Of a stretch of 64,000 bases of DNA, positions 38,392 through 60,728 are shown in pieces. The translations under genes and the position numbers were made by a program. This stretch comes from Cupriavidus phytohabitans. Lineage in GTDB: Bacteria; Pseudomonadota; Gammaproteobacteria; Burkholderiales; Burkholderiaceae. The stretch lies in contig NZ_AUFE01000008.1 in assembly GCF_000426345.1 (NCBI RefSeq), positions 124,001 through 188,000 of the forward strand, written 5' to 3'. Position 1 is the first letter of the stretch; each line of letters opens with the position of its first letter. The notes beneath the pieces are model-generated. The model saw nothing but the letters and a program-made list of their open reading frames with translations. It ran no database searches and had not been told where the DNA came from.

Positions 38392-38465
38392 CGTTGTAGC
38401 CGAACGGATGCAACAACTCCCCTCCCGTCCCGCTGAACCCCGCCATTTCGCATGACCCGGTGCGG

Positions 38466-39965
38466 CAAGCCCCGCCGTTCAGGGCGGGTAAGGATAGCGC
38501 GGACGGCGTACCCGTCCTTGGATTTCAGTGAGGCGTCTGTTGCTGTTCGATGTATTAGCGCACGATGGGGATCGGAGCGCCGCCGCAGGATGAGGCGATA
38601 AGACGGCGACCACAGGATGCCCTTCCAGTAGCGGTTTTGGATGTCGGGCCGTTCCCTTGTGCAGCAGGTGGCTGGACATGACTTTGAGGTATTGTTGAGC
38701 CATGCAACGACTTCAAGCCTTCAAGTACGAGTTGATGCCGACCAGCGAGCAGCATCGCAGCATGCGCCGCTTCGCCGGATCGTGCCGGTTTGTATTCAAT
38801 AAGGCGCTGGCGTTGCAGAAGGAACGCCATGAGCAAGGTGAGAAGAAGCTCGACTACGCCGGCCTATGCAAGCTGCTTACCGCGTGGCGCAACAGCACAG
38901 ACACCGCCTGGTTGGCCGATGCACCCGTTCATCCACTGCAACAGACGCTCAAGGATTTGGAGCGGGCCTACGCCAACTTCTTCGCCAGGCGGGCCGACTT
39001 CCCGCACTTCAAGAAGAAGGGCCAAAGCGACAGCTTCCGCTATCCTGATCCGAAGCAGATCAAGCAGGACCAGGCCAACAGCCGCCTGTTCCTGCCGAAG
39101 CTCGGCTGGCTGCGCTACCGCAATTGCCGTGAGACGCTCGGCACGGTGAAAAACGTCACAGTCAGCCTGTCGGGCGGCAGGTGGTTTGTGTCGATCCAGA
39201 CCGAGCGAGAGGTCGAGCAGCCCGTCCCCAACGGCGGCGCGGTTGGCATCGACATGGGCGTGGCGCGGTTCGCTACGCTCTCGGACGGCACGTGCTACGC
39301 GCCGCTCAACAGCTTCAAGCGGCATGAAACCGCGCTGCGCAAGGCCCAGCAGGCGATGAGCCGCAAAAACAAGTTCAGCAAGAACTGGACCAAGGCGAAA
39401 GCTCGCGTTCAGCACATTCATTCCCGGATCGGCAATGCCCGCCGCGACTACCTGCACAAGACCACGACCGCGATCAGCCAAAACCACGCGATGGTGTGTA
39501 TCGAGGACTTGCAGGTGCGGAATATGTCCAAGTCGGCGGCAGGCACGGCGGAGGCGCCGGGAAGAAACGTGCGGGCCAAGTCTGGCCTGAACAAGGCCAT
39601 CCTCGATCAGGGCTGGTCCGAGTTCCGCCGCCAGCTGGACTACAAGCTTGCGTGGAGGGGCGGCTATCTCATTGCCGTGTCGCCGCAGAACACAAGCCGC
39701 ACCTGCCCGTGTTGTGGTCATGTATCGGCGCACAACAGGCAGTCCCAAGCCCGGTTCGAGTGTGTGGAATGCGGCTTCGAGCAAAACGCCGATGTGGTCG
39801 GCGCGATCAATGTTCTAAGGGCGGGACACGCCCGGCTAGCCTGTGAAGTGAGCGATGCAGTCGGGTCGCCAGCAGCAGGAACCCACCGAAGCGACTCAGG
39901 GGCGGTTTAATGCCGCGCCTGAGCGCCGTAAGGATCGCCGGCCTGCAGACCGGCGAGGATGTCAA
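38466..39965 (+). mobile_element. IS200/IS605-family element carrying tnpB only (element 1)
   Basis: The left end has a hairpin (CCCGCC/GGCGGG, 38471-38488) inside a 25-base block starting CCCCGCCGTTCAGGGCGGGT. The right end has a hairpin (TCGCCGG/CCGGCGA, 39935-39956) leading into GAGGATGTCAA at 39955-39965. The same left block (22 of 25 bases) and right tip (11 of 11) bound element 2 at 59573-60713. Subterminal hairpins without terminal inverted repeats are typical of this family. No tnpA is present, so movement would need a transposase in trans. It lies between two convergent terminators (38361, 40132). Ends are approximate to a few bases. Confidence 0.75.
38702..39910 (+). CDS. tnpB: TnpB RNA-guided nuclease (IS200/IS605 OrfB) with complete D-E-D triad
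   Basis: 402 residues. TnpB proteins use an RNA made from the element's 3' end to cut DNA next to a short target-adjacent motif. The RuvC triad is intact: Asp184 (GIDMGVARFATL), Glu268 (MVCIEDLQVRNM) and Asp364 (NADVVGAINVL). The zinc ribbon has Cys335/338 and Cys354/357. The N-terminal helix-turn-helix/OrfB region (FKYELMPTSEQHRSMRRFAG) is present. Length is normal. The protein probably remains active. The stop is 55 nt before the right end, so a guide RNA would begin within the 3' coding region. Confidence 0.9.
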   Translation: MQRLQAFKYELMPTSEQHRSMRRFAGSCRFVFNKALALQKERHEQGEKKLDYAGLCKLLTAWRNSTDTAWLADAPVHPLQQTLKDLERAYANFFARRADFPHFKKKGQSDSFRYPDPKQIKQDQANSRLFLPKLGWLRYRNCRETLGTVKNVTVSLSGGRWFVSIQTEREVEQPVPNGGAVGIDMGVARFATLSDGTCYAPLNSFKRHETALRKAQQAMSRKNKFSKNWTKAKARVQHIHSRIGNARRDYLHKTTTAISQNHAMVCIEDLQVRNMSKSAAGTAEAPGRNVRAKSGLNKAILDQGWSEFRRQLDYKLAWRGGYLIAVSPQNTSRTCPCCGHVSAHNRQSQARFECVECGFEQNADVVGAINVLRAGHARLACEVSDAVGSPAAGTHRSDSGAV

Positions 39966-40131
39966 ATTGGTGTCAATCAAATAGATGCGGCGCCTCGCCA
40001 AGATCCAGATTGCGCTGGAAACCCATTATGCGGTGAGGCAATGGTGTCCAGGGGCATGGCTTCCTGGCAGATTTGGAGAGCAGTCTGCGCCGTGCCCGCG
40101 TGCTGGCAGATAAGCCGATTCGCAACGCGAA
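39966..40131. other. Flank between element 1 and the dctM terminator
   Basis: About 165 nt with no coding signal. The first bases (ATTGGTGTCAATCAAATAGA, 39966-39985) would be the guide segment if a TnpB guide RNA reads past the right end. Confidence 0.4.
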
Positions 40132-40165
40132 AGAAAAAAAGCCCCGCAGCGCTTGCGGGGCTTTT
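40132..40165 (-). terminator. Terminator after dctM, bidirectional
   Basis: On the minus strand: AAAAGCCCCGCA, five-base loop, TGCGGGGCTTTTTTTTT. It is symmetric enough to act also on plus-strand transcripts leaving element 1. It lies about 30 nt past the dctM stop. Confidence 0.85.
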
Positions 40166-40194
40166 CGACCTTGCGGGTCCGGACGATGCCGGCT

Positions 40195-41916
40195 CTAGTT
40201 CTTCTTTTTCTCGAACTCGAACTGGGGCGCCGACGGCTCGCTCTCCGCGGCTGGCTGGGCCGGCAACTCCAGACCTTCGCCGCCGCCCGCTTGCCCGGCC
40301 GGCGCCGGCACCGACAGGCTCGGCGCCGATGGCTTGGGGCCGGCGCTATCCAGGTCGATGCTCAGGTCACGCGTGATGCTGCGGTCCTGGGCCTTGTGGC
40401 CGCCGGTCGCAACCAGGCCCGGGAAGACGATGATCAACGCCACCATGATCAGCTGGATGGCCACGAACGGCACCGCACCCCAGTAGATGTCCGACGTCTT
40501 CACCTCGCGCGGCGCCACCGAGCGCAGGTAGAACAGCGAAAAGCCGAACGGCGGGTGCATGAACGAAGTCTGCATGTTCACCGCCAGCAGTACGCCGAAC
40601 CAGATCAGGTCGATGCCGAGCTTGTCCGCCACCGGCCCCACCAGCGGCACCAGGATAAAGGCAAGCTCGAAGAAGTCCAGGAAGAACGCCAGCAGGAAGA
40701 ACAGCACGTTGACTGCGACCAGGAAGCCGGTCTGGCCGCCCGGCAGGGCGGTCAGCAGGTGCTCCACCCAGATATGGCCGTCCACGCCGTAGAAGGTCAG
40801 CGAGAACACCCGTGCGCCGATCAGAATGAAGATCACGAAGGCCGACAGCTTGAGCGTCGCCTCCATTGCCTGCCGGGTCAGCCCCAGATCCAGGCGGCGC
40901 TTCAGCAGGGCCAGCACCAGCGCGCCCAGCGCGCCCATGCCGCCGCCTTCGGTCGGCGTGGCCACGCCGACGAAGATGGTGCCGAGCACCAGGAAGATCA
41001 GCGCCAGCGGCGGGATCAGCACGAAGGTGACCTTTTCGGCCATGTGCGACAGCAGGTTCAGCTTCAGCGCCTTGTTGATCACCGCCAGCACGAAGGCGAA
41101 CAGGATCGCCGCGCCCACCGAGATCACCAGGCGCTCGTCCAGCGGCGCCTCCGGCTTGTACATCTTGTCCACCGCCACGCCTACCGCGACCGACAGCGCG
41201 GTCAGCACCAGTACCGACGCCGCGCCACTCTTGCCGCTGGGCTCGCGGAAGGTGCGTGCCTCGATCGGCAGCGCCGGCGCCGCGCTCGGCTTGATCAGCG
41301 TGACCAGCAGCACGTAGCCCATGTACATGCCCGTCAGCACCAGGCCCGGCACGAACGCGCCCTTATACATGTCGCCCACCGAGCGGCCAAGCTGGTCGGC
41401 CAGCACGATCAGCACCAGCGACGGCGGGATGATCTGTGCCAGCGTGCCCGAGGCGGCGATCACGCCCGATGCCAGCCGCTTGTCGTACTTGTACTTCAGC
41501 ATCAGCGGCAGCGAGATCAGGCCCATCGAGATCACCGAGGCCGCCACCACGCCGGTGGTCGCCGCCAGCAGCGCGCCGACGAAGATCACCGCATAGGCCA
41601 AGCCGCCCCGGATCGGGCCGAACAGCTGGCCGATGGTGTCGAGCAGGTCTTCGGCCATCCCGGATCGCTCGAGGATCAGGCCCATGAAGGTGAAGAACGG
41701 GATCGCCAGCAGCGTGTCGTTCTCCATGATGCCGAACAGCCGGCTGGGGAGGGCCTGCAGCAGCTCGGGCGGCAGCATGCCCAACTCGATACCGATAAAG
41801 GCGAACAGCAGGCCGTTGGCGGCCAGCGCGAAAGCGATCGGAAAGCCCGACAGCAGGAATACGACCAGCGAAGCGAACATGATCGGGGCCATGTTCGCGA
41901 TCAGGAATTGCGTCAT
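40195..41916 (-). CDS. dctM: TRAP transporter large membrane subunit
   Basis: 573 residues and about 12 membrane helices. TRAP transporters use a sodium or proton gradient to import organic acids captured by a periplasmic DctP protein. The DctM core is clear (MENDTLLAIPFFTFMGLILERSGMA, SGTLAQIIPPSLVLIVLAD, and DFFELAFILVPLVGPVADKLG). It is longer than usual (about 430) owing to a central insertion with extra helices (about 215-330) and a 70-residue hydrophilic Pro/Ser/Glu-rich C-terminal tail. dctQ lies 12 nt upstream. No dctP is in the window. Confidence 0.92.
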   Translation of the reverse strand: MTQFLIANMAPIMFASLVVFLLSGFPIAFALAANGLLFAFIGIELGMLPPELLQALPSRLFGIMENDTLLAIPFFTFMGLILERSGMAEDLLDTIGQLFGPIRGGLAYAVIFVGALLAATTGVVAASVISMGLISLPLMLKYKYDKRLASGVIAASGTLAQIIPPSLVLIVLADQLGRSVGDMYKGAFVPGLVLTGMYMGYVLLVTLIKPSAAPALPIEARTFREPSGKSGAASVLVLTALSVAVGVAVDKMYKPEAPLDERLVISVGAAILFAFVLAVINKALKLNLLSHMAEKVTFVLIPPLALIFLVLGTIFVGVATPTEGGGMGALGALVLALLKRRLDLGLTRQAMEATLKLSAFVIFILIGARVFSLTFYGVDGHIWVEHLLTALPGGQTGFLVAVNVLFFLLAFFLDFFELAFILVPLVGPVADKLGIDLIWFGVLLAVNMQTSFMHPPFGFSLFYLRSVAPREVKTSDIYWGAVPFVAIQLIMVALIIVFPGLVATGGHKAQDRSITRDLSIDLDSAGPKPSAPSLSVPAPAGQAGGGEGLELPAQPAAESEPSAPQFEFEKKKN

Positions 41917-41928
41917 CGTGCGCGCTCC

Positions 41929-42528
41929 TTATTGTTTTTCGGACGGACCGGGCTGGTTGGCCTGCGCGATCGCGGCGATCTCCAGCGCCGGGTCGACGGC
42001 GTGCTTGCGGAATGCCGAGAATGGCAGCTCGCCCTTCAGGTACGCAAAGCGCTTGATCAGTTCGGACAGGCCCTGCAGGATCAGCAGCAGGAAGCCCGCG
42101 GCGATCAGGAATTTGGCGGGCCAGCGGATCAGGCCTCCGGCATTGCCGGACATCTCATGGCCGACATAAGACAGCCAGAAGTAGGGGATCGCCAGCCAGA
42201 GGATGATGGCCGAGATCGGCAGCAGGAAAAACAGGATGCCGAAGATATCGATCCAGACCTGGGTGCGCTCGGAGAAGCGGCCGGCGATGACGTCGATGCG
42301 CACATGTTCGTCACGCATCAGCGTGTAGGGGGCGCCGAGCAGGAACACGCCGGCGAACATATACCATTGCAGTTCGAGCCATGCGTTGGAACTGATGCTG
42401 AAGGTGTAGCGAATGATGGCGTTACCTGCGCAGACCAGTACGGCCAGCAGGATCAGCCATTTCGCCCATTGCCCGATGAATTCATTCACGGCGTCGATAA
42501 GCCGCGAGATCCTCATAAGGAGAGACAT
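41929..42528 (-). CDS. dctQ: TRAP transporter small membrane subunit
   Basis: 199 residues with four membrane helices. The DctQ signature is seen in RYTFSISSNAWLELQWYMFAGVFLLGAPYTLMRDEHVRIDV (read across the second and third helices). It partners DctM, whose gene starts 12 nt downstream. Start at 42528, with AGGA upstream; Met5 is an alternative. The C-terminus (about 25 residues) is hydrophilic. Confidence 0.92.
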   Translation of the reverse strand: MSLLMRISRLIDAVNEFIGQWAKWLILLAVLVCAGNAIIRYTFSISSNAWLELQWYMFAGVFLLGAPYTLMRDEHVRIDVIAGRFSERTQVWIDIFGILFFLLPISAIILWLAIPYFWLSYVGHEMSGNAGGLIRWPAKFLIAAGFLLLILQGLSELIKRFAYLKGELPFSAFRKHAVDPALEIAAIAQANQPGPSEKQ

Positions 42529-42760
42529 GTGATCGTCCTAGGGATTGGGGATACAGGGGTGGCGCGTTAGTTTACGGCGTCACTTGTCCTACATCTTTAG
42601 GGTGAATCCCCAGTGCATCACATTTGCGGCCGCGCTTGCAGCGAACAGGCACTAATGCACGCGGAATTGCGGCGAATTCCGTATTTTCTGGGCAGCATTG
42701 CCCCGAGGTGGGATAACCGCTTCGTGGAAATAACAACAGTGTCGGTGCGAAGGCGCACAG
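42529..42760. other. Intergenic region upstream of dctQ
   Basis: About 230 nt before the argH terminator. It should carry the dctQM promoter. The only ordered signal seen is the dyad at 42662-42681, listed separately. Confidence 0.4.
42662..42681. promoter_or_regulatory. Candidate operator dyad upstream of dctQM
   Basis: CGGAATT, six bases, AATTCCG: a perfect 7-bp inverted repeat about 135-155 nt upstream of dctQ. It could be a repressor or activator site. The regulator is unknown. Confidence 0.35.
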
Positions 42761-42793
42761 AAAAGACAAAACGGGAGCGCGCGCTCCCGTTTG
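42761..42793 (-). terminator. Rho-independent terminator after argH
   Basis: A perfect 20-bp palindrome, ACGGGAGCGC/GCGCTCCCGT (42771-42790), followed on the minus strand by TTTTGTCTTTT. It lies about 50 nt beyond the argH stop. Confidence 0.85.
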
Positions 42794-42839
42794 TCATGAC
42801 CGGCGTGGGGGTGGGCGCAGGGCGCCGCCCTCCTGGCCG

Positions 42840-44258
42840 TCAGGCGTTCAGTGCCTTACGTGCGTCGGCAATGGCAGCGCGCACCTGGTCCGGCGCGGTG
42901 CCGCCAATATGGTTGCGCGCGGCGACCGAGCCTTCCAGCGTCAGCACGGTGTGCACGTCGTCGCCGATCAGCGCGGCCTTGTCGCCCAGGCCGGACACGT
43001 CGCGCAGCTCGGCCACGGTCAGGTCGGCCAGGTCGCACTGGCGGCTGTCGCAGGCACGGACAGCGTGGGCGACGGCCTCGTGCGCGTCGCGGAAGGGCAG
43101 GCCCTTCTTGACCAGGTAGTCGGCCAGGTCGGTGGCGGTGGCGTAGCCCTGCAGCGCGGCGGCGCGCATCGCTTCCGGCTTGACGGTGATGCCCGGCACC
43201 ATGTCGGCGAAGATGCGCAGCGTGTCCACGATGGTGTCGACGGTGTCGAACAGCGGCTCCTTGTCTTCCTGGTTGTCCTTGTTGTACGCCAGCGGCTGGC
43301 CCTTCATCAGGGTCAGCAGGCCGATCAGGTGGCCGTTGACGCGGCCGGTCTTGCCGCGCGCCAGCTCGGGCACGTCGGGGTTCTTCTTCTGCGGCATGAT
43401 CGAGCTGCCGGTGCAGAAGCGGTCGGCGATGTCGATAAAGCCGACGCGCGGGCTCATCCACAGCACCAGCTCTTCCGAGAATCGCGACACGTGGGTCATC
43501 ACCAGCGCGGCGGCGGCGCAGAATTCGATGGCGAAGTCGCGGTCCGACACGGCATCCAGCGAATTGCGGCAGACGCCGTCGAAGCCCAGCTGCTGCGCCA
43601 CGAACTCGCGGTCGATCGGGTAGCTGGTGCCGGCCAGCGCGGCGGCGCCCAGGGGCAGGCGGTTGACGCGCTTGCGGCAGTCGGCCATGCGCTCGGCATC
43701 GCGGGTGAACATTTCCACGTAGGCCAGCAGGTGGTGGCCGAAGGTAACCGGCTGCGCCACCTGCAGGTGGGTGAATCCGGGCAGGATGGTGTCGGCGTTC
43801 TGGTCGGCCAGGTCGAGCAGCGAGGTGCGCAGCGCGCCGAGCAGGGAGATGATGTTGTCGATCTCGCTGCGCAGCCACAGGCGGATATCGGTCGCGACCT
43901 GGTCATTGCGCGAGCGGCCGGTGTGCAGGCGCTTGCCGGCATCGCCCACCAGCGCGGTCAGGCGCGCCTCGATATTCAGGTGGACGTCTTCCAGGTCCAG
44001 CTTCCATTCGAAGCTGCCGGCCTCGATCTCGCCCTTGATCTGGGCCATGCCGCGTTCGATCTCGGCGCGGTCGGCCTCGGCGATGATGCCCTGTTTCGCC
44101 AGCATGGCCGCGTGGGCCAGCGAACCCTGGATGTCGAACAGGGCCAGGCGCTTGTCGAAGAACACCGAGGCGGTGTAGCGCTTCACCAGGTCGGACATCG
44201 GTTCGGAGAAGCGGGCGGACCAGGCTTCGCCTTTCTTGGCAAGTTGGGAGGTGGACAT
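42840..44258 (-). CDS. argH: Argininosuccinate lyase
   Basis: Last step of arginine synthesis: argininosuccinate to arginine and fumarate, cytosolic homotetramer. The 472 residues carry the fumarase/aspartase superfamily signature [15 protein letters not shown] and the conserved [13 protein letters not shown] and [16 protein letters not shown]. The start at 44258 ([17 protein letters not shown]) is set by family length; the upstream open frame is unrelated. It is monocistronic with its own terminator. Confidence 0.96.
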
Positions 44259-44391
44259 GGACGTCGGCTGCAGTGGTTCGCCGCGGTCGGCCGGCGCGTT
44301 GAGCGTCGGCGGGCGCAAGCGAATTGGAGAATTTGGGAAAAGGGCGATTATATCGTCCGCCGGGAGCATGGCGGCGCCGGCCGGGCCTCGG

Positions 44392-45138
44392 TTACAGCGG
44401 GTTGTGGAGCACAGGCCCCTTGAACACCACCGGGCCGCTCGGCCCGTCGGCACTGGGCGAGCCGCCGGTCGGCTCGATACTGACCGCCAGCGCCGGCACC
44501 GCGGCAGGGGGCTCCGCCAGCGCGAGGCGGGCCTGCGGCGCCCGGCCGATCACGCCGAGCGAGCGCGGCTTGCCATCGGCCGGCAGGGCCCACAGCTGCA
44601 GCACCTGCCGCTCGCTCAGTTCCAGGTGATCCAGGCGTCGCACGATCAGGCTGCGTGCGCTTGCGTCCCACGACACCAGCATGGCGGGCTGGGCGTGGTC
44701 GTCGTTGAGCACGGCGATGATCGCGGCCGGCGCGGCCTCGCGCTGCTGTCCCACCTGCATGCCGATCCCGATCGACAGCACCGCCACCACGGCCATTGCC
44801 GCCGCCGCGCCGCGCCAGAAAAGCGGGGTCGACCACAGCCGCTGCCACCACCCGGCCGCCGGTTCGGCCATCGGCGGCCCCGGCGCCAGACTCTCAACGG
44901 GCGCCTTCCAGCCCAGCCGTGTTTCGATGCCGCACCAGACCTTGTCGACCGGTTCCGCCGTCGCCTGCAGCTCGGACACGCCGGCCAGCCGGTCCTGCCA
45001 GCGCAGGATGGCGGCGTGCACCGCCGGTTCTTCGCGCGCGAGGTGTTCCATGCGCCGGCGCGCGCCACCGCGCAGCACGCCCAGCGCGTACTGGGCGGCA
45101 AGGCGGTCGAGCAGCTCGGGATGGGCGGCCAGCTTCAT
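44392..45138 (-). CDS. Anti-sigma factor, RskA-type
   Basis: 248 residues: a cytoplasmic N-terminal sigma-binding part ([25 protein letters not shown]), one membrane helix ([19 protein letters not shown], about residues 111-130) and a periplasmic RskA/anti-sigma-K domain ([23 protein letters not shown]). It should hold the sigma factor encoded just upstream at the membrane until a signal releases it. The N-terminal part lacks the HxxxCxxC zinc motif of many anti-sigma factors. Its start overlaps the sigma gene by four bases, so translation is coupled. Confidence 0.87.
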
Positions 45139-45734
45139 GTCGCCGCCTCCATGCAGTGGCGCAGCCGTTCCAGGCCGCGGCGCACCCAGGACTTGACCGT
45201 GCCCAGCGGCACGCGCAGCCGCGCCGCCAGTTCGGCATGGCTCAGGTCGTGCAGGTACGCCAGCACGATGGCCTGGCGCTGCGCCTGCTCCAGCCGTTGC
45301 AGGCAGCGGTTCAGCGCGCGCGCCTGCTGGCTGGCATCGGCGAGCTCGGCGGGTCCGGCGGCGTCGTCGGCCAGCCACTCGCCCAGGTCTTCTTCCAGCT
45401 CGACGGTCTGCGCAATGCGCGCGGCGGCGGCGCGGCGCAGGCAGTCGAGCGCCCGGTTGCGCACGATCGCGGTCATCCAGGTCATCGGCGCGGCCAGGTG
45501 CGGCCGGTAGTCGCCGGCGTGGTGCCAGATGCTGACAAAGCTTTCCTGCACGACGTCCTCCGCCCAATCGCGCCTGCCAGTGATACGCAGCGCGAGGCCA
45601 AACAGTTTCGTTGCGGTGAGGTCATAGAGGCCGCGCAGTGCCTGGCGGTCGCCCACGGCCACGGCCTGCAGCAGTGCCTCCAGCCGATCGGGACTGGCAG
45701 GCGCGGCATAGGACGGCTGGGGGGCGGACGGCAC
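45135..45734 (-). CDS. ECF-type RNA polymerase sigma factor
   Basis: 199 residues with region 2 (LFGLALRITGRRDWAEDVVQESFVSIW) and region 4 (RQAIVLAYLHDLSHAELAARLRVPLGTVKSWVRRGLERL). It directs RNA polymerase to stress-type promoters when released by the anti-sigma factor. The GTG at 45734, with AGGA nine bases before it, is preferred to the in-frame TTG at 45752, because a TATAAT at 45767-45772 would place the transcript start almost on that TTG. The divergent ferritin-like gene may be a target. Confidence 0.88.
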   Translation of the reverse strand: MPSAPQPSYAAPASPDRLEALLQAVAVGDRQALRGLYDLTATKLFGLALRITGRRDWAEDVVQESFVSIWHHAGDYRPHLAAPMTWMTAIVRNRALDCLRRAAAARIAQTVELEEDLGEWLADDAAGPAELADASQQARALNRCLQRLEQAQRQAIVLAYLHDLSHAELAARLRVPLGTVKSWVRRGLERLRHCMEAAT

Positions 45735-45766
45735 CGGGACGGGTCCTCGCAAGGGAGCTTTGCCGG

Positions 45767-45772
45767 ATTATA
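45767..45772 (-). promoter_or_regulatory. Candidate -10 (TATAAT) for the sigma/anti-sigma operon
   Basis: A perfect TATAAT on the minus strand, 33 nt before the chosen GTG start. The segment 17 nt further upstream (GCGCTT) is a poor -35, so this may be an activated or weak promoter. Confidence 0.45.
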
Positions 45773-45878
45773 GGTAGCGCCGCATCCAAAAGCGCGGCGC
45801 GTGCGTAGAAGTGACAGGCGCAAGCCCGGCACCCCGGCCAACGGGGCGCCACGTTGTCATCCCTCACAGGAGAACACC

Positions 45879-46490: not shown

Positions 46491-46512
46491 GGTCGGCAAC
46501 GCTTGCCGATTG

Positions 46513-46690
46513 TTTGCTCCCCTCCCGCTAGCGGGAGAGGGGCAGGGGGTGAGGGCGGGCGTTGGCAGGACTGCAGGGGGTCGATTTGCCGGCAGATCGG
46601 GGTCTGGCACCGGGGAGGCCGCCGCCCGTTGCAGGCGCCAGCCCTCACCCCCGGCCCCTCTCCCACTTGCGCGGGAGAGGGGAGCAAACC
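46513..46690. repeat. REP-like inverted repeat pair
   Basis: A left copy (46513-46560) and a right copy (46640-46690) are near-identical in opposite orientation. Each contains GCTCCCCT, a small hairpin built on CCCGC...GCGGGAG, GAGGGG and GGGGGTGAGGGC. Together they form a dyad of about 180 nt in the gap between the convergent ferritin-like and ppc genes. Dispersed intergenic elements like this are common in Burkholderiales; the pair could end or shield both transcripts. Confidence 0.65.
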
Positions 46691-46722
46691 GGCAGCCCGC
46701 TTTCGTCTTATGCCAGCGGTCG

Positions 46723-49815: not shown

Positions 49816-49885
49816 GCAATCTCCTCGTCTGCTTATCTGATATATGGTGCGGAGCGGCTATTGGGTCGCGTGCTACCATTCACGG

Positions 49886-50905: not shown

Positions 50906-50914
50906 GGCTGCCCG

Positions 50915-53122: not shown

Positions 53123-53126
53123 GCCC

Positions 53127-54317
53127 ATGCGCCTTCTGTTCTGGGTTGCGGTCCTGTTCGGCGGCGCCGTCGGGCTGGCGCTGTTCACGCAGTTCAACCA
53201 CAGCAATGTGGTGCTGTTCTATCCGCCGTACCGCGTCGAGCTGTCGCTGAACCTGGCACTGGCCTTGCTGCTGCTGCTGTTCTTCGTGGTCTGGACGGTG
53301 ATGTCCACCATCCGCCATCTGGGCGACATGCCGCGCCGCGCTGCCGCCTACCGCGAACGCAGCCGCATGAACAAGGCCCAGGCTGCGCTGCGCGAGTCGA
53401 TCGAAAACCTGTTCGCCGGCCGCTTTGCCCGCGCCGAGCGCTGCGCGCGCGAGGCCCAGTCGTGGGAAGACCAGGCCCAGACCGCCGCGCTGATCGGCGC
53501 GCGCGCCGCGCACCGCATGCAGGAGACCGAACGGCGCGATGCCTGGATGTCGCAGGTCACCGATCCCGAGCGCGAACAGGCGCGGCTGGTGTCGATGGCC
53601 GAGCTGCTGGTTGACGCACGCGACGCAGACGGCGCGCTGGAAACCATCGCCCAGCTGCAGGCGCAGGGTGCGCGCCAGATCCACGTGCAGCGCATTGCGC
53701 TGCGCGCGCACCAGCACCTGAAGAACTGGTCCGAGGTACTGCGCCTGGCGCGCTCGCTGGAGAAGCGCAACGCGCTGCATCCGGTGCTGGCGCTGCGGCT
53801 CAAGCAGATGGCGGTCGAGGCCATGCTCGACGAGCGCCGCCACGATGCCGACGCCCTCGGCGAATTCTGGCGCTCGCTGTCCGCCGACGAACGCCGCGCC
53901 ACGCGCATCGCCGAACCCGCCGCGCGCTACTTTGCTGCGCTGGGCCGTCAGAACGAAGCCCGCCGCATCATCGAGGACGCGCTCAAATTCAATTGGGACA
54001 GCCGCCTGGTGCTGCGCTATGCCGACTGCGCGGTGCCCGGCCACGCACTGCCCCAGATCCAGCAGGCCGAGAAATGGCTGGCGGGGCATCCCGCCGACGC
54101 CGACCTCTACTACACGCTGGGCGTGCTGTGCCTGGGCGAGAAGCTGTGGGGCAAGGCCCAGTCCAGCTTCGAGCGCGCGCTGAAGTACGCCGATATCGAC
54201 CAGCAGCGGCGGCTGCGCGTGCGCACGCACCTGGCGCTGGCGCGGCTGTTCGAGGAAACCGAGCGTTTCGACGACGCGCAGCGGCACTATCGCGAAAGCG
54301 CGATGCTGGCGGCCTGA
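53127..54317 (+). CDS. hemY: HemY-type haem biosynthesis-associated protein
   Basis: 396 residues with two N-terminal membrane helices (FWVAVLFGGAVGLALF and ALALLLLLFFVVWTVM) and a cytoplasmic TPR-like helical region (ALRESIENLFAGRFARAERCA, LYYTLGVLCLGEKLWGKAQSSFERAL). This is the proteobacterial HemY of hemCDXY operons, not the Bacillus HemY oxidase; its precise role is unresolved. It follows hemDX by four bases. Confidence 0.92.
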   Translation: MRLLFWVAVLFGGAVGLALFTQFNHSNVVLFYPPYRVELSLNLALALLLLLFFVVWTVMSTIRHLGDMPRRAAAYRERSRMNKAQAALRESIENLFAGRFARAERCAREAQSWEDQAQTAALIGARAAHRMQETERRDAWMSQVTDPEREQARLVSMAELLVDARDADGALETIAQLQAQGARQIHVQRIALRAHQHLKNWSEVLRLARSLEKRNALHPVLALRLKQMAVEAMLDERRHDADALGEFWRSLSADERRATRIAEPAARYFAALGRQNEARRIIEDALKFNWDSRLVLRYADCAVPGHALPQIQQAEKWLAGHPADADLYYTLGVLCLGEKLWGKAQSSFERALKYADIDQQRRLRVRTHLALARLFEETERFDDAQRHYRESAMLAA

Positions 54318-54335
54318 GCGGCGCCCCCCGGGCGA

Positions 54336-55904
54336 TCAGTCGTCGGGGGCATCCTGTTCCAAGCCGGCGGCGCTGCGCTTGCCGGCTTCCTTCACCACCC
54401 CATAGCGCTCCAGGGTTTCCTTGCGTGCAATATCGTGCTGCACCAGCGGACGCGGGTAGTCCTCGCCCAGCCGCACGCCGGCGTCCGCCAGTACATGGTC
54501 TGGCGCGGTCCATGGCGCATGCAGGTACTTGTCCGGCAGCGCCGCCAGCTGTGGCAGGTACTTGCGGATGAAGCGCCCCTGCGGGTCAAACTTCTCCGAC
54601 TGGGTCACCGGGTTGAAGATGCGGAACCACGGTTGCGCATCGCAACCGGTCGACGCCGCCCATTGCCAGCCGCCGTTGTTGGCGGAAAAGTCGAAATCAT
54701 TGAGCAGGTCGGCAAAATACTGCTCGCCGCGGTGCCAGTCCACGCCCAGGTCCTTGACCAGGAAGCTGGCCGTGACCATGCGCAGCCGGTTGTGCATATA
54801 GCCGCTCTGCCGGATCTGCAGCATGGCGGCATCGACCAGCGGATAGCCGGTGGCCCCATCGCACCAGGCGCGGAAATAGCGCTCGCCGGTTGCGCCGTCC
54901 TGCCAGCGGATCGCGTCGTAGGCCGGGTGGAAGGCCGCGCCGGCGGCCACGCGCGGATGGTGGTGCAGGATCATGAAGTAAAAGTCGCGCCAGATCAGCT
55001 CGGACAGCCACACCGCCGCGCCCGCGCTGTCCGCGCCGCCGCGCAGCACCGCTTCATGCGCGGCGCGTGCCAGCGTGCGGATCGAGATGGTGCCGAAGCG
55101 CAGGTGCACCGACAGGTAGCTGGGACCGCGCAGGGCAGGATAGTCGCGGCGGCGGCCGTAGTCGCCGATGCGCCCGGTGAACTCCTCGAACAGGGCCTGC
55201 GCACCGGCGGCGCCGGTCGGCATGGCGACTTCGGCAAGGTTGCTGTTGCGGAAGCCTAGCTGTTCGAGCGTCGGCAACGGCTTGCGATATGCTGCCGGCA
55301 CCGGCGCCAGCGCGTGCAGGTACGGGTCGATCGGATACGGGCGCAGGTCGAACGGCTGCACTGTCCGCAGCCAGGCATTCTTGTAGGGCGTGAACACCGA
55401 GAAGGGCTTGCGCTGGCCGTTCAGGATCTCGTCGCGTTCGAAGACGGCCTGGTCCTTGAACGTGAACAGCAGGCGCGCCTGTGCCGCCAGCGCCTGGCGC
55501 ACGGTGTCATCGCGTGCCATGGCGGCAGGCTCGTAGTCGTGGTTGGCAAAGACCGCCTGGACGTCCAGCGCTTGCGCCAGCGCGGGCACGGCGTCGACGG
55601 CGCGGTCGTCCAGCACGATCAGCCCGCCGCCGGCCGCAGTCAGCGTGCGGGCCAGCTCCCGCAATGATTCGAGGATGAATTCGACGCGCCGGTCGGCCTG
55701 CAGGCCGCGCGCCAGCAGCGGGTCGAGGATGTCGCGGTCGAATACGAAGACGCACCACACCCGGGCACAATGCCTGAGGGCATAATGCAGCGCCGCGTGG
55801 TCGCTGGCGCGCAGGTCGCGCCGGAACCAGGCCAGCCCGCGCTCGAAATCCCGGCCGATACGGTAAGGTTTGCGGCCCGATGCCGAAGGGTCTGCTGGCT
55901 GCAT
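54336..55904 (-). CDS. phr: Deoxyribodipyrimidine photolyase
   Basis: Light-driven repair of UV pyrimidine dimers. The 522 residues include an N-terminal antenna domain (GLAWFRRDLRASDHAALHYAL) and a C-terminal FAD domain with WSELIWRDFY-like WLSELIWRDFYFMILHHHP, MHNRLRMVTASFLVKDLGVDW and NDFDFSANNGGWQWAASTG (class I CPD photolyase). The start at 55904 is set by homology; the longer frame upstream is unrelated. It is convergent with hemY, 18 nt apart. Confidence 0.93.
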   Translation of the reverse strand: MQPADPSASGRKPYRIGRDFERGLAWFRRDLRASDHAALHYALRHCARVWCVFVFDRDILDPLLARGLQADRRVEFILESLRELARTLTAAGGGLIVLDDRAVDAVPALAQALDVQAVFANHDYEPAAMARDDTVRQALAAQARLLFTFKDQAVFERDEILNGQRKPFSVFTPYKNAWLRTVQPFDLRPYPIDPYLHALAPVPAAYRKPLPTLEQLGFRNSNLAEVAMPTGAAGAQALFEEFTGRIGDYGRRRDYPALRGPSYLSVHLRFGTISIRTLARAAHEAVLRGGADSAGAAVWLSELIWRDFYFMILHHHPRVAAGAAFHPAYDAIRWQDGATGERYFRAWCDGATGYPLVDAAMLQIRQSGYMHNRLRMVTASFLVKDLGVDWHRGEQYFADLLNDFDFSANNGGWQWAASTGCDAQPWFRIFNPVTQSEKFDPQGRFIRKYLPQLAALPDKYLHAPWTAPDHVLADAGVRLGEDYPRPLVQHDIARKETLERYGVVKEAGKRSAAGLEQDAPDD

Positions 55905-56060
55905 GCTCGCTGCCTGACGGAGTCGAAGGAAAATGCGCGCAATGAGGCCGGCAAGTGGGCGTCGCGGCGAGGACTGTCGCCGGGTGCGTCGCGCCAATAC
56001 CCTAACATAGCGGTTCGGCACCAATCTGCCACTCAACCAACGAATACAGCAACAAAGCAC

Positions 56061-56768
56061 ATGACACTCGACCGCATCCTCCAATCCCAGGGCTTCGGCA
56101 CGCGCCGCTACTGCGGCGACCTGGTCGCCGCCGGGCTGGTCGAAGTCAACGGCGAGCTGTGCGAGGATCCCCGCGCCCAGTTCGAGGTGGACGGCCTGCG
56201 CCTGACCGTCGACGGCGAGGAGTGGATCGCCTGCACCAAGGCCTACCTGATGCTGAACAAGCCCGCCGGCTATGAATGCTCGCAGCGTCCGCGCCATCAT
56301 CCCAGCGTCTACAACCTGCTGCCGGTGCCACTGCGCCAGCGCGAAGTCCAGGCCGTGGGCCGGCTCGACCACGACACCACCGGGTTGCTGCTGCTGACCG
56401 ACGACGGCCAGTTCATCCACGCCCAGACCTCGCCCAAGCGCAAGGTGCCCAAGGTCTATGAAGTGACGACTGCGGAGCCGGTGACGCCCGAACAGGCGCA
56501 GGCACTGGTCGCCGGCGTGCAGCTGCTGGACGAACCGGCGCCGATCGCCGCAGAAGCCTGCGAGATCACCGGCGAACGCAGCATGCGGCTGACCCTGCTG
56601 CAAGGCAAGTACCATCAGGTCAAGCGCATGGTGTCCGCGGCTGGCAACCACGTCAGCGCCTTGCACCGCAGCGCGCTCGGCAGCCTGCAGCTGGATCCGG
56701 AGCTGGCCGAAGGGGAATGGCGCTGGCTGACGGCGGACGAGCTCGCGGCGCTGACCCGCAAGGCATGA
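56061..56768 (+). CDS. rsuA: 16S rRNA pseudouridine synthase, RsuA type
   Basis: Converts a uridine in 16S rRNA (U516 in E. coli) to pseudouridine. The 235 residues comprise an S4-like RNA-binding N-terminus (LDRILQSQGFGTRRYCG), LNKPAGYECS, the catalytic Asp in GRLDHDTTGLLLLTDDG, and GKYHQVKRMVSAAGNHV. The start at 56061 aligns with the family. It is divergent from the photolyase gene. Confidence 0.92.
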   Translation: MTLDRILQSQGFGTRRYCGDLVAAGLVEVNGELCEDPRAQFEVDGLRLTVDGEEWIACTKAYLMLNKPAGYECSQRPRHHPSVYNLLPVPLRQREVQAVGRLDHDTTGLLLLTDDGQFIHAQTSPKRKVPKVYEVTTAEPVTPEQAQALVAGVQLLDEPAPIAAEACEITGERSMRLTLLQGKYHQVKRMVSAAGNHVSALHRSALGSLQLDPELAEGEWRWLTADELAALTRKA

Positions 56769-56789
56769 CAAGGCATGACAAGGCATGAC
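56760..56789 (+). repeat. 10-bp tandem repeat at the rsuA stop codon
   Basis: Three copies of AAGGCATGAC, the first containing the rsuA stop codon and each copy containing TGA in the same phase shift. This is probably replication slippage with no coding effect. Confidence 0.8.
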
Positions 56790-56898
56790 CAAAGGGCCGT
56801 ATCATCGGTCCGTAGCTTTCGGCAAGCGGCCCGCGCGGGCGCCCATTGCTGCACTGCAACGCCCGCCAATCTTTTCCGGAAGACCCCCGGCGATTTGA

Positions 56899-56904
56899 TA
56901 AAAT
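56899..56904 (+). promoter_or_regulatory. Candidate -10 (TAAAAT) for yqgE
   Basis: TGATAAAAT ends eight bases before the ATG at 56912, which would put the transcription start at or next to that ATG. No clear -35 is visible. Confidence 0.35.
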
Positions 56905-56911
56905 GCAAGGC

Positions 56912-57484
56912 ATGGCGAAGCCCGAAGCACCCATCAATCTGACCAATCAGTTCCTGATTGCCATGCCTGGCATGGCTGATCCGACCTTTTCGGGTTCCGT
57001 CGTCTACATCTGCGAACACAACGAGCGTGGCGCGCTCGGGCTGGTGATCAACCGGCCCATCGACATCGACATGGCCACGCTGTTCGACAAGATCGACCTC
57101 AAGCTTGAAATCCAGCCAGTGGCGGCCCAGCCGGTCTACTTCGGCGGCCCGGTGCAGACCGAGCGCGGCTTTGTGCTGCACGACCCGGTCGGCGTCTATG
57201 TCTCGTCGCTGGCGGTGCCGGGCGGGCTGGAAATGACCACCTCCAAGGACGTGCTGGAGGCCGTGGCCAACGGCAGCGGCCCGCATCGCTTCCTGCTGAC
57301 CCTGGGCTATTCCGGCTGGGGTGCCGGCCAGCTGGAAGAAGAACTCAGCCGCAACGGCTGGCTGACCGTCCTGGCCGATCCCGAGATCATCTTCAGCGTG
57401 CCGCCCGAAGGGCGCTTTGCCGCGGCCATCGGCCTGTTGGGCGTCGACGTCAACATGCTGTCCGGCGAGGCCGGGCATGCCTGA
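56912..57484 (+). CDS. yqgE: YqgE/AlgH family protein
   Basis: 190 residues of the UPF0301 family ([23 protein letters not shown] in two parts, [45 protein letters not shown]). The molecular role is unsettled; in Pseudomonas AlgH affects several pathways, and the gene travels with ruvX. The ATG at 56903 is possible but would lie inside the -10-like TAAAAT. The 3' end overlaps ruvX by eight bases. Confidence 0.92.
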
Positions 57485-57902
57485 CGCCGTGGGGCGTGAA
57501 CTGCCCCGCGACGGCACGGTCCTGGCATTCGACTACGGCGAGAAAAAGATCGGCGTCGCGCTGGGCAATTTCATCACGCGTGAGGCGCGTGCGCTGACCA
57601 TCCTTCCCAATATCACCGTTGAAGGCCGCTTCGAGGCCGTCGGCGCACTGATCCACGAGTGGAATCCGGTTCAGCTGATCGTCGGCATGCCGGTCAACCC
57701 GGACGGCGAAGAGCAGCCGATGATGCGGCTGGCGCGGCGCTTCGGCAACCAGCTCAACGGCCGCTTCAACCTGCCGGTGGAATGGGTGGACGAGCGCTAT
57801 TCCTCGCGCGCCGCCTCGATGGCCGGCGCGCGCCGCGGCGAACTCGACGCCGAAGCCGCGCGCATCATCCTGCAACAGTATTTCGACCAATTCCCGCTAT
57901 GA
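57477..57902 (+). CDS. ruvX: Putative Holliday junction resolvase/pre-16S rRNA nuclease (YqgF/RuvX)
   Basis: A 141-residue RNase H-fold nuclease: [17 protein letters not shown] with the first catalytic Asp, [27 protein letters not shown] and the last Asp in [14 protein letters not shown]. In E. coli it processes the 5' end of 16S rRNA; a junction-resolving role is also proposed. Start at 57477, overlapping yqgE; it overlaps pyrR by four bases, so the three genes form one operon. Confidence 0.92.
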
Positions 57903-58435
57903 CGCAGATTTCCGCACCCGACGCCGAGTTGCTGTACCGCAAGCTGCTGGACCAGGCCCGCGCCCTGATCCCCGACGCCGAGCGTGAACGCTGGTCGGTG
58001 GCGGGCATCCACTCCGGCGGCGCGTGGATCGCCGCGCGCCTGGCCACGGACCTGAACCTGCCCGAGCATGGCGTGATCAACGTCGCCTTCCATCGCGACG
58101 ACTACGCCAAGAAGGGCCTGCACAGCCAGGCCCAGTCGACCACGCTGCCGTTTGCCGTGGAAGACCGCAACATCCTGCTGATCGACGACGTGCTGGCCAC
58201 CGGCCGCACCATCCGCGCCGCCGTCAACGAACTGTTCGACTACGGCCGTCCGGCGCGCGTGGCGCTGGGCGTGCTGGCCGACCGCGGCGGGCGCCAGCTT
58301 CCGATCGCCGCCGACCTGGTCGCCGCCGAGATCGAACTGCCGCGCGGCACGACCCTGGTGCTGTCGCGCCAGGGCGAGGGCGCCGACGCGCGCTTCGCCT
58401 TCGCCACCGAACCTGCCGATACCGCCGCCGGCTGA
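57899..58435 (+). CDS. pyrR: PyrR: pyrimidine operon regulator/uracil phosphoribosyltransferase
   Basis: 178 residues with the PRPP-binding loop [21 protein letters not shown], a typical HRDDY ([14 protein letters not shown]), and the type I PRT fold. In Bacillus it binds pyr mRNA and terminates transcription; in Gram-negatives it is often mainly an enzyme. It is translationally coupled to ruvX and lies 107 nt before pyrB. Confidence 0.92.
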
Positions 58436-58448
58436 GCCGGCGTTGCGT

Positions 58449-58492
58449 GCCAGGCGCCGCATTGCGCCGCATTGCGCTGTAGCGCGCCTGGC
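58449..58492 (+). promoter_or_regulatory. Hairpin in the pyrR-pyrB gap
   Basis: GCCAGGCGC (58449-58457) pairs perfectly with GCGCCTGGC (58484-58492). The loop holds a repeated CGCCGCATTG, and a T6 run follows at 58519-58524, too far away for a standard terminator. It could be a leader or attenuator of pyrB. The function is unproven. Confidence 0.4.
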
Positions 58493-58542
58493 GCCTGCCA
58501 CGAGACCACACCACCCCGTTTTTTGCCCGCGCCCGACCTGCC

Positions 58543-59514
58543 ATGACCAAGACGTTCCGCAACCCGCAGCTCACCAAGAACGGCGAACTGAAGCATTTGC
58601 TGTCGATCGAGGGGTTGTCGCGTGACATGATCACGCACATCCTCGACACCGCCAGCCAGTTCGTATCGCTGTCCGACTCAGACCGCGATGTCAAGAAGGT
58701 GCCGCTGCTGCGCGGCAAGAGCGTGTTCAACCTGTTCTTCGAGAACTCCACCCGCACCCGCACCACCTTCGAGATCGCGGCCAAGCGGCTGTCGGCGGAC
58801 GTGCTCAACCTGAACATCAATGCGTCGTCGACCAGCAAGGGCGAGTCGCTGCTCGACACCATCAACAACCTGTCCGCCATGTCCGCCGACATGTTCGTGG
58901 TGCGCCATGCCAGCTCCGGCGCGCCCTACCTGATCGCCGAGCACGTCGCGCCGCACGTGCACGTGATCAACGCCGGCGACGGCCGCCACGCGCACCCGAC
59001 GCAGGGCCTGCTGGATATGTACACAATCCGGCACTTCAAGAAGGACTTCACTAACCTGACGGTAGCGATCGTCGGCGACATCCTGCATTCCCGCGTGGCG
59101 CGCTCGGATATCCACGCGCTGACCACGCTCGGCGTGCCCGAAGTGCGCGCCATCGGCCCGCGCACGCTGCTGCCATCCGGCCTGGAGCAGATGGGCGTGC
59201 GCGTCTTCCACAACATGGAAGAAGGGCTCAAGGGCGTCGACGTGGTCATCATGCTGCGGCTGCAGAACGAGCGCATGAGCGGTGCGCTGCTGCCGTCGGC
59301 GCAGGAATACTTCAAGGCATACGGCCTCACGCCGGAGCGCCTGGCACTGGCCAGGCCCGACGCCATCGTGATGCACCCGGGCCCGATGAACCGCGGCGTG
59401 GAGATCGACTCCGCCGTGGCCGACGGCCCTCAGTCGGTGATCCTGAACCAGGTGACCTTCGGCATCGCCGTGCGCATGGCGGTGATGGGCATCGTGGCAG
59501 GGAACAACGACTGA
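58543..59514 (+). CDS. pyrB: Aspartate carbamoyltransferase catalytic subunit
   Basis: First committed step of pyrimidine synthesis: carbamoyl phosphate plus aspartate to carbamoyl aspartate. The 323 residues carry the carbamoyl-phosphate site [41 protein letters not shown] and [13 protein letters not shown]. There is no pyrI regulatory chain; instead the Pseudomonas-type arrangement with the inactive dihydroorotase homologue PyrC' is expected, and pyrC' follows on the other side of element 2. Confidence 0.96.
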
Positions 59515-59572
59515 AACGATGCCGTCGAGCCAGGACATTCCGAACACGCCGAGCGAAACGACAAGCCAAGCT

Positions 59573-60713
59573 TTGACATCCTCCCCTCCCTAAAGGGAGA
59601 GGATTCCCTCTGCAGGCGATCGATGTCCCGATCGGGCAAGGATATTTAGCGCAGCGTTCACATCGCGATCATGTACAGCACCGCATTCACTGCATACCCA
59701 CTGCCTTATTCCAAGGTCTGCGATACCTTTCGGCCTCTCCGGCGGCATCGCGTCGCACGAAGAACAAACCTGGGTGGTGAAACGTTCGTCAACTTCCTCG
59801 TACCACGCGCCATGCGCAATCGCCTTGTACGCGAGCATTGTGCGGAAGGACGACCAGCCCGCATCGAGGACGGACTTTGCCATGCTGGTCCTGGCGAGTC
59901 CGGCGGCATTCACATTACCCACCGCGATGTAGTCAAAGTCCCGCACGATGCGATGCGAGAGCTGGTGCAAAAAGTCACGCCGCGCATTCTTGATACGTGC
60001 GTGGAGGTTTGTGGTCTGTCGTTTCTTGCGCGCACGCTGCGCTTTGGCAAGGGCTTGCTCGAGTTGGCCAAGGTGGCGCGGATTCCCGATCTTCTCGCCG
60101 GTCGAGAGTGTGGCAAGGTCCTGCAGGCCCAGATCGATACCGACGCCGCGCGCCGGGCAGCGGGCTTGCGTGTCGGCAACTTCAATCACGATGTTCAGGA
60201 ACCAGTTGCCTCGCGCGTCGCGCGAGAAATTCGTGCCGTCCTTGATCTTGCCTTCGGGAAGGGGGCGGGAGCTGAAAATGCGAAACGTATTGCCGGCAAA
60301 GCGGAAGGCATCGCCCGAACGCTTGAGATCCCGCCCCTTGAGCGGCACCCAGCCAAGGGACTTGCGGCCGCGATAGCGCAAGTAGGGCCGGCGATGCTGG
60401 TTACGCGACTTGGCGTACTGCTCACAAACCGCATTGACGGTACCCGAATGGATACCAAGTTCCTTGCTGCTGCCGCTCGTCAGCACGTTCAGATCGAAGC
60501 CCGTAGGCCATTTTTTGCCCCATTTGAGCGCGTGCTTCTGCGTGTCATTGCAGAAGTTCCAGACGTAGTTCACTACGCGGCTCTGCTGATTGAGCAGGCC
60601 GTTCAGCGACTTCACCCGGTAGCGATAGACGAGAAGCATGCCGGTCATTCTAATTTGGGATTGCTTGCTGCTGGCAGCGCTCCTTTCCTTCCCCGCCCTG
60701 AAGGTCGGGGTTT
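59573..60713 (-). mobile_element. IS200/IS605-family element carrying tnpB only (element 2), inserted between pyrB and pyrC'
   Basis: In the element's own direction (minus), the left end block CCCCGACCTTCAGGGCGGGG is at 60710-60691, and the right end is a CTCCC/GGGAG hairpin followed by GAGGATGTCAA at 59583-59573. Both ends match element 1. No tnpA. It begins 58 nt after the pyrB stop and ends about 16 nt before the pyrC' start, so it splits an otherwise continuous plus-strand pyr operon. The tnpB stop codon lies inside the right-end hairpin. Confidence 0.78.
59590..60648 (-). CDS. tnpB: TnpB-family protein with non-canonical RuvC-II site
   Basis: 352 residues from ATG 60648 (Met4 at 60639 is also possible). 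RuvC-I Asp172 (GIDLGLQDLATL) and RuvC-III Asp329 (DRDVNAALNIL) are present, and the zinc ribbon has Cys295/298 and Cys319/322. Where TnpB normally has the catalytic Glu, this protein reads YIAVGNVNAAG, with no acid. A Glu288 lies before the zinc ribbon in EEVDERFTTQVC, and it may take over the role, since TnpB clades with relocated catalytic residues are known. If not, the protein is a DNA-binding but nuclease-dead form. The sequence is only distantly related to the TnpB of element 1. Confidence 0.88.
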   Translation of the reverse strand: MTGMLLVYRYRVKSLNGLLNQQSRVVNYVWNFCNDTQKHALKWGKKWPTGFDLNVLTSGSSKELGIHSGTVNAVCEQYAKSRNQHRRPYLRYRGRKSLGWVPLKGRDLKRSGDAFRFAGNTFRIFSSRPLPEGKIKDGTNFSRDARGNWFLNIVIEVADTQARCPARGVGIDLGLQDLATLSTGEKIGNPRHLGQLEQALAKAQRARKKRQTTNLHARIKNARRDFLHQLSHRIVRDFDYIAVGNVNAAGLARTSMAKSVLDAGWSSFRTMLAYKAIAHGAWYEEVDERFTTQVCSSCDAMPPERPKGIADLGIRQWVCSECGAVHDRDVNAALNILARSGHRSPAEGILSL

Positions 60714-60728
60714 CTCGGAGCAAATCTG

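Follow-up and report, generated by a model that had tools for sequence, protein, structure and literature searches.

How two very different TnpB proteins come to lie between similar transposon ends, and why one of them sits exactly before a start codon, is the question raised by a locus of Cupriavidus phytohabitans (assembly GCF_000426345.1, contig NZ_AUFE01000008.1, positions 124,001 to 188,000 of the forward strand). This stretch of 64,000 nucleotides, numbered from its first letter, is called the window below. It contains element 1, with a remnant of tnpA and the gene tnpB1, and element 2, with tnpB2 as its only gene. On the sequences analyzed here, it appears probable, in our judgement clearly so, that both use a shared end system of a Y1 transposase (TnpA), in which TnpB is exchangeable, the target is set by a guide in the ends, and element 2 is placed at start codons.

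Ends and target code of the two elements

The first-pass annotation had reported matching left blocks and one common right tip, and both were found at the places it gave. The blocks CCCCGCCGTTCAGGGCGGGTAAGGA (38470, plus strand) and CCCCGACCTTCAGGGCGGGGAAGGA (60686-60710, minus strand) are equal at 22 of 25 positions, the second-best place in the window reaching 17 of 25 and five letter-shuffled windows (one strand each) a maximum of 17-18, while GAGGATGTCAA terminates both elements. What the two elements share is a transposase-recognition architecture consisting of a hairpin, a 5' guide, the right end GAAT...TCAA and a predicted omega-RNA pseudoknot. Their limits had been correct on one side each. 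For element 1, first drawn as 38466-39965, the right edge held and the left edge is moved to 38457 on the basis of the family target TGAC; for element 2, first drawn as 59573-60713, the edge at 59573 held and empty-site comparison moved the other to 60728. The features of element 1 are as follows.

38457-39965, plus strand: element 1, IS605-type (tnpA remnant and tnpB), ends read from the sequence; 5' flank ATGAC; second copy on contig C24
38466-38469, plus strand: left guide CAAG, with TGAC as its predicted pairing target (code after PMC5934647)
38470-38489, plus strand: left-end hairpin
38530-38703, minus strand: tnpA remnant, C-terminal part only, limits approximate; about 260 bp missing relative to an intact relative
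38702-39910, plus strand: tnpB1, 402 amino acids, canonical RuvC-II glutamate (IEDL)
39932-39935, plus strand: right guide GGAT (GAAT in most listed relatives)
39936-39955, plus strand: right-end hairpin and omega-RNA 3' stem-loop, as read from the sequence
39962-39965, plus strand: right cleavage site TCAA (published code, PMC5934647)

The copy of element 1 on contig C24 is identical at 1356 of 1436 aligned bases. In relatives, BLAST found a full-length tnpA where element 1 has its remnant, divergent to tnpB; the earlier statement that neither element has tnpA stands for an intact gene but overlooks this C-terminal part. In relatives L303 and L304 the right flank carries on from the left one; in element 1 (39966-40150) it does not, an indication that DNA was deleted or rearranged once the element was in place.

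The guides of IS608 lie 5' of their hairpins, the left one (AAAG) pairing with TTAC and the right one (GAAT) with TCAA (PMC5934647), and an IS608-like layout was present in both elements. Among 51 TnpB1-type left ends, 37 read TGAC/CAAG (the row of element 1 counted, whose left guide pairs with its target) and eight read TGAT/CAAA, none of these 45 being mispaired at the free base, and the remaining six had no readable target; the search pattern fixed TGA and CAA, which left only the last base pair freely tested, and the rows are related. For relatives of element 2, we assembled 95 loci (80 fetched copies with TnpB2 relatives, our own, four plasmid and ten viral loci), of which 87 were usable and eight were dropped as lacking a usable element-2 TnpB start. 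A left end was located in 73 of the 87, the other 14 having none within about 140 bases (two of them, L361 and L365, have one about 225 bases upstream of tnpB). TCAT/GAAA was read in 57 of these 73 left ends; in eight, one or two guide letters were changed, six were unread and two had CCAT or GCAT flanks. Wider TnpB2 relatives showed TTAC/AAAG and TTAT/AAAA (read by eye, uncounted), and all these pairs fit the rule T-X-A-Y with X'-A-A-Y'. As signals, the two ends are therefore less alike than had been claimed: their left guides and targets differ (CAAG/TGAC versus GAAA/TCAT), and among the kin of element 2 the hairpin letters drift while the stem is kept.

The right end GAATC-hairpin-TCAA was found in most listed members of both families (GAATC in 51 of the 56 element-2-clade copies whose right end was located by a pattern that included TCAA). 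The tip proved to be a general feature, TCAA with guide GAAT being the right-end code published for IS608 (PMC5934647). An upstream GGACNT can pair with the tip as a pseudoknot, and the free base pairs in 81 of 88 TnpB2-family sequences (63 G-C, 15 A-T, 3 T-A), seven further sequences having no upstream motif. The pairing was thus found in the TnpB2 family, while the simple pattern gave no resolution in the TnpB1 family. A pseudoknot beside the guide has been published for TnpB (PMC10711439), and the right tip may also be held by the guide RNA.

We propose that both elements are single-strand IS200/IS605-type transposons whose ends would be read by one Y1 TnpA family. Each end would combine a GC hairpin with a 5' four-base DNA guide that pairs with a four-base cleavage or target site, and GAAT-hairpin-TCAA would serve at the same time as the 3' end of the TnpB guide RNA, with its pseudoknot. 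Guides and targets covary as described, and by analogy TnpA would use these ends as in IS608. The right guide of element 1, GGAT instead of GAAT in both own copies, is a possible defect and speaks against this proposal.

Insertion of element 2 and its relatives at start codons

Element 2 ends directly before the first base of the next gene, which from its context we take to be pyrC, encoding dihydroorotase. Its features are as follows.

59573-60728, minus strand: element 2, IS1341-type (tnpB only), lying exactly before the pyrC start codon, from empty sites
60711-60714, minus strand: left guide GAAA, with TCAT as its predicted pairing target
60691-60710, minus strand: left-end hairpin
60717-60720, plus strand: GGAG contributed by element 2, eight bases before the pyrC ATG
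60729-60731, plus strand: pyrC start codon; the flank reads TTCAT on the element strand
59590-60648, minus strand: tnpB2, 352 amino acids, relocated catalytic glutamate E288, with D172 and D329 conserved
59603-59606, minus strand: right guide GAAT
59583-59602, minus strand: right-end hairpin and omega-RNA 3' stem-loop, as read from the sequence
59623-59627, minus strand: omega-RNA segment GACAT, predicted to form the pseudoknot with the tip ATGTC (59575-59579)
59573-59576, minus strand: right cleavage site TCAA, from empty sites

The pyrC start was sought in 60 same-genus genomes, and 29 loci were fetched besides our own. The start anchor was present in 28 of the 29, none with an element in the preceding 60 bases. 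The empty site of L273 reads ...AAGCCAAGCT|ATGAAG, and the window is identical to it except for 1156 bases inserted between. On the element strand the junctions are TTCAT|CAG...TCAA|AGCTTGG, without target duplication, as the superfamily predicts; insertion 3' of a short fixed site with no target duplication agrees with placing element 2 in IS200/IS605. Elsewhere in the genome (contig C3, near 132682; L492), a solo, decayed left end of the element-2 type immediately precedes what looks like a start codon (MKRIFDVVLALLG..., by-eye translation), possibly the trace of another copy that the genome has lost.

This position is common in the family. TnpB2 relatives occurred in 61 of 398 family genomes, our own included, and TCAT, on the opposite strand ATGA, lies directly before the left end in 71 of the 73 located copies. 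Empty sites were rebuilt by script for the 56 copies with a located right end, giving 55 distinct sites after removal of one duplicate, and the 310 other ATGA in the same sites served as the control. Frames beginning at the junctions, among them MRVFKLPDLGEGLQE, MSKTFDYIVVGGGSG and MNNLRRLDLNLLVTL, look like ordinary gene starts. A coding-biased frame follows, and does not precede, the junction ATG in 37 of 55 sites (43 of 310 controls; p 1.4e-15), and a native ribosome-binding motif stands 4-18 bases before it in 29 of 55 (32 of 310; p 7.8e-12); all three junction features combine in 22 of 55 (13 of 310). Because the native motif precedes the junction in those 29 sites, the element often separates a gene from its own ribosome-binding site. 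In 53 of 56 copies the left end itself provides GGAG, placed 6, 8 or 9 bases upstream of the ATG. On the other side, the upstream gene apparently ends in the TGA of ATGA at 7 of 55 sites (other frames 2 and 0), one of the seven starting ATGG and not being of this kind and two being related sites; the right tip reads TTGA on the gene strand and keeps the stop in frame.

Several points weigh against this interpretation. The script that defined the flanks favored TCAT near the left end, which makes 71 of 73 somewhat generous, and 17 of the 73 copies were dropped before the site tests as their right tip was off pattern. Moreover, 18 of 55 junctions fail the gene-start frame test, 26 of 55 have no native motif, and the copies are related, so that site counts are not fully independent.

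Element 2 would be a copy without tnpA, directed by its guide GAAA to TCAT (ATGA on the opposite strand), and element 1 a tnpA-deleted IS605-type copy aimed at TGAC. Many members of the element-2 family appear to lie between a ribosome-binding site and its start codon, where the GGAG of the left end would replace the motif at the right distance. Position and motif are seen directly; restored translation, with the downstream gene still translatable, would be their consequence. We lean slightly towards a still more specific reading, that of a start-codon-homing transposon, in which the guide GAAA and a TTCAT adjacent motif would both read an ATGAA start, the left end would act as a portable ribosome-binding site, the right TTGA would keep the upstream stop overlapping at ATGA, and the nuclease would have been acquired by a TnpB swap under a common transposase.

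Placement could equally come from survival only, if insertion over TCAT were random and copies persisted at gene starts, with their GGAG, or between genes; we hold this just about probable. A four-base target cannot itself pick start codons, insertions into internal TCAT would break genes, and the 18 sites mentioned above are not recognizable gene starts. Even so, the finding itself remains, with a left end that looks adapted to gene starts; the diverged autonomous relative L218, which has its own tnpA, likewise shows CTCC next to TCAT where a gene appears to begin. As the four-base target alone cannot explain the location, survivor selection is likely part of the start-codon placement that we propose.

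The idea that TnpB1-type elements mark stop codons in a similar way was not adopted; their TGA was in frame with an upstream 50-codon open frame in 17 of 42 cases versus 7 and 9 in the other frames, which is suggestive only. No description of start-codon-inserting TnpB elements was found in the titles and abstract beginnings of the open-licence literature, where absence is weak evidence, and no paper on TnpB with TTCAT and a target-adjacent motif was found there.

Exchange of TnpB between related transposases

The suggestion that a TnpB has been swapped between otherwise common ends was supported by 37 distinct tnpA-tnpB pairs, 29 with TnpB1 and eight with TnpB2. The TnpB tree (four rows omitted) has two clean clades with one change between classes in 100% of bootstraps. 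In the TnpA tree (two broken or short rows of the 37 omitted) the TnpB classes are intermixed, with six changes (5-7 in bootstraps), and a single clade of TnpB2-linked TnpAs was rejected by the approximately unbiased (AU) test (p 4.9e-5). Removal of four further rows on long branches left three changes (AU p 0.0056).

Two elements combine the parts directly. In L194, on an Acidovorax plasmid, the left end is TTGAC/CAAG and TnpA shows 84% identity to TnpB1-linked TnpAs, but the nuclease is of the TnpB2 type, the TnpBs sharing 35%. In L097, a TnpB2-type nuclease stands with a tnpA remnant behind a TTGAT/CAAA left end. At the level of sequence, trees and chimeras show that closely related TnpAs and left ends have been joined, on more than one occasion, to TnpBs of two deeply separate lineages. 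On the debit side, the right tip of L194 is GAGGATGGCTC instead of GTCAA and an inserted stretch interrupts the left hairpin of L097, so that both chimeras are altered elements; and few branches of the TnpA tree are well supported (5 of 32 starred), the modest inner support making the number of exchanges uncertain.

It is unlikely that the ends are shared by common descent alone, with TnpA, TnpB and ends diverging together and no exchange. This would suit an old architecture, IS608 having the same right guide GAAT and site TCAA (PMC5934647), and the mostly weak inner branches of the TnpA tree, but it conflicts with the rejected single clade and with L194 and L097, in which a TnpB2-type tnpB is combined with a left end and a tnpA (reduced to a remnant in L097) of the TnpB1 type.

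A locus in a Competibacteraceae bin (L098) has a start-codon-type left flank (TTTCAT, CTCC) fused to a TnpB1-type block, GAAGGATAGCG; no tnpB was detected there.

The two TnpB nucleases

TnpB1 (402 amino acids) and TnpB2 (352 amino acids) are 32% identical over 224 aligned columns and fall into two separate clades. They are not close sisters, and the great differences in length, motifs and RuvC-II site noted in the first-pass annotation are real, the glutamate being canonical in one and relocated in the other. The OrfB_IS605 and Cas12f1-like TNB domains are present in both. TnpB1 matches ISDra2 TnpB (8bf8, 8h1j) over 387 residues (3-389, E about 3e-54), and the match of TnpB2 is confined to residues 141-337; an AlphaFold model of TnpB2 (31 sequences; mean predicted local distance difference test score 84.8, predicted template modeling score 0.68) had 8h1j as its top structure match (E 1.1e-19).

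A glutamate 5-6 residues before CxxC was found in all 132 distinct TnpB2-family proteins and in none of 52 of the TnpB1 family. Conversely, the canonical RuvC-II motif was absent from the searched stretch in all 132 and present in 50 of the 52. D172, E288 and D329 were invariant in 31 aligned TnpB2-family proteins. TldR are dead TnpB repressors in which the RuvC catalytic residues are lost, and TnpB2 does not show this loss. That TnpB2 is a dead nuclease acting as a TldR-like RNA-guided repressor is accordingly very doubtful: the canonical glutamate is indeed replaced (VGNVN) across the family, yet the relocated one is there in 132 of 132, the three catalytic residues do not vary in the 31 and the arrangement has been published (PMC10711439). 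The RuvC-II difference is, from the sequences, the known relocation of the catalytic glutamate, TnpBs of this kind being described in the same source as Ealt.

Five of 36 viral TnpB2 loci (L199, L200, L201, L203 and L215; also L378) have a small ribbon-helix-helix-like frame (MKRTxxFLPE..., by eye) that extends into the start of tnpB. Two of these, L201 and L203 (the same as L361 and L365), have a left end of the start-codon type about 225 bases ahead of tnpB, which puts the small gene inside the element there. In L364 and L368, the tnpB that follows a left end of this type (CTCATCAGTTGCTCC) encodes a protein with only 36% identity to TnpB2 over residues 111-338 and may represent yet another nuclease lineage using this left end.

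Distribution of the end block

The genome-wide search proposed in the first-pass annotation found the block pattern TTCAGGGCGGGNNARGA three times in 7.58 Mb, each at one of three tnpB genes (the third belongs to the C24 copy of element 1), and the reversed control not at all; with three of three own-genome blocks at tnpB, the block as a general intergenic repeat was rejected. It is held by 4 of 60 same-genus genomes (own included) and 12 of 398 family genomes. Outside the genome, 133 block places in 131 loci were examined among the matches listed (at least 119 stretches initially; classes overlap). A tnpB directly downstream was of the TnpB1 type at 46 and of the TnpB2 type at one, a tnpA piece was present at 48, fewer than 700 bases of DNA were left on the downstream side at 45, and 40 that were not cut off had neither gene; of these 40, 11 were inspected and three were ends-only elements (L077 twice, L116). 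The 11-base tip GAGGATGTCAA was rejected as stand-alone evidence, as it has at least one copy outside the elements, a few being expected by chance in 15 Mb (both strands). Context, namely the guide, the hairpin and the position after the tnpB stop, carries the weight of the right tip.

The near-identity of the left blocks is particular to this pair. In 56 parsed hairpins of the element-2 clade the stem is mostly conserved and the letters vary, for example CCCCGCCA-TTGA-TGGCGGGA (ten times) and CCCCGTCC-TTCA-GGACGGGG (seven times). Of the 73 clade left ends, element 2 is the only one with 22 matches of 25 to element 1, the remaining 72 scoring 14-20. The two elements thus have in common the fold and a CCCCG/CGGGG stem; the match of this pair is the top of the spread of a variable hairpin, mostly chance. 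Sequence exchange between the two elements within this genome, by gene conversion or recombination, is a highly improbable source of this singular score, given that the same-genus relatives L375 and L376 have closely similar hairpin letters (CCCCGACCTTCAGGG) and that the CCCCG...CGGGG stem is common to both families.

Proposed movement without an own transposase

Both copies of element 1 have the identical internal tnpA deletion at different sites. Genome G033 has three relatives of element 2, each on a contig of its own; of 1056 coding bases, the second copy agrees with the first at 1053 and the third at 1055. The same genome also has four elements with full-length matches to tnpA and tnpB1. 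Ends-only copies of about 245 bases, with both IS605-type ends and no gene, were found in L077 (3976 and 5866, both keeping a tnpB1 tail) and L116. Indirectly, these sequences support mobilization in trans of copies without a working tnpA; the elements would move on TnpA from elsewhere, and TnpB, judging from published TnpB work, probably keeps or restores the copy at TTCAT sites. An objection to this is that 9 of 18 genomes rich in element-2 relatives had no family TnpA at E<=0.001, the search threshold, and for that reason many copies are stranded today or moved long ago. A match below 1e-30 was found in 5 of the 18, with stops in two of these (G019, G290), and in our own genome the remnant on C24 was the only match to family TnpA.

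On own contig C22 (L001) there is a 243-amino-acid frame with a Y1-transposase domain (Pfam Y1 model), without a match to family TnpA at E<=0.001 and unrelated-looking. G019 has eleven tnpA matches of near-equal score, each with one internal TGA (L455, L461, L464, L467, L470, L472-L477), and looks like a case of a TnpB1-type element amplified although its tnpA appears broken.

Relation to known systems and implications

The IS1341 group consists of tnpB-only elements. Like it, the element-2 family has tnpB without tnpA between IS605-like ends, but it differs in the ribosome-binding motif of its left end and in being found at gene starts. ISDra2, whose target is TTGAT and which also has an omega-RNA pseudoknot, has a TnpB that TnpB1 resembles over 387 residues and from which TnpB2 departs by its relocated glutamate. 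The ends-only copies in L077 and L116 are similar to PATE/MITE-like IS605 derivatives, except that they were reduced from a TnpB1-type element. With the Ealt TnpBs (PMC10711439), TnpB2 shares the E about six residues before the zinc-finger CxxC and D-hydrophobic-G at RuvC-I; here such proteins occur in IS200/IS605-type elements, one clade of which has TCAT targets. IS608/IS605 of Helicobacter (TnpA-Y1) has the same two hairpins, guide-target pairing, right GAAT/TCAA and insertion 3' of a fixed four-base site kept in the left flank (PMC5934647). Its left code is TTAC/AAAG, while the codes here are TGAC/CAAG, TGAT/CAAA and TCAT/GAAA; also unlike IS608, tnpA is a remnant or absent in our genome and the element-2 family lies at start codons. 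IStrons likewise make insertion nearly neutral for the host gene (PMC4227781), using RNA splicing where the element-2 family would use a replacement ribosome-binding motif.

The findings suggest that the parts of IS605-type elements are separable, the transposase code in the ends staying while the nuclease is exchanged, and the natural chimeras L194 and L097 lend themselves to the question of what matches a TnpB to its target site. Where IStrons use splicing, the start-codon family would offer another way of making insertion nearly neutral, and its TnpB is predicted to have TTCAT as its adjacent motif and so to read start codons.

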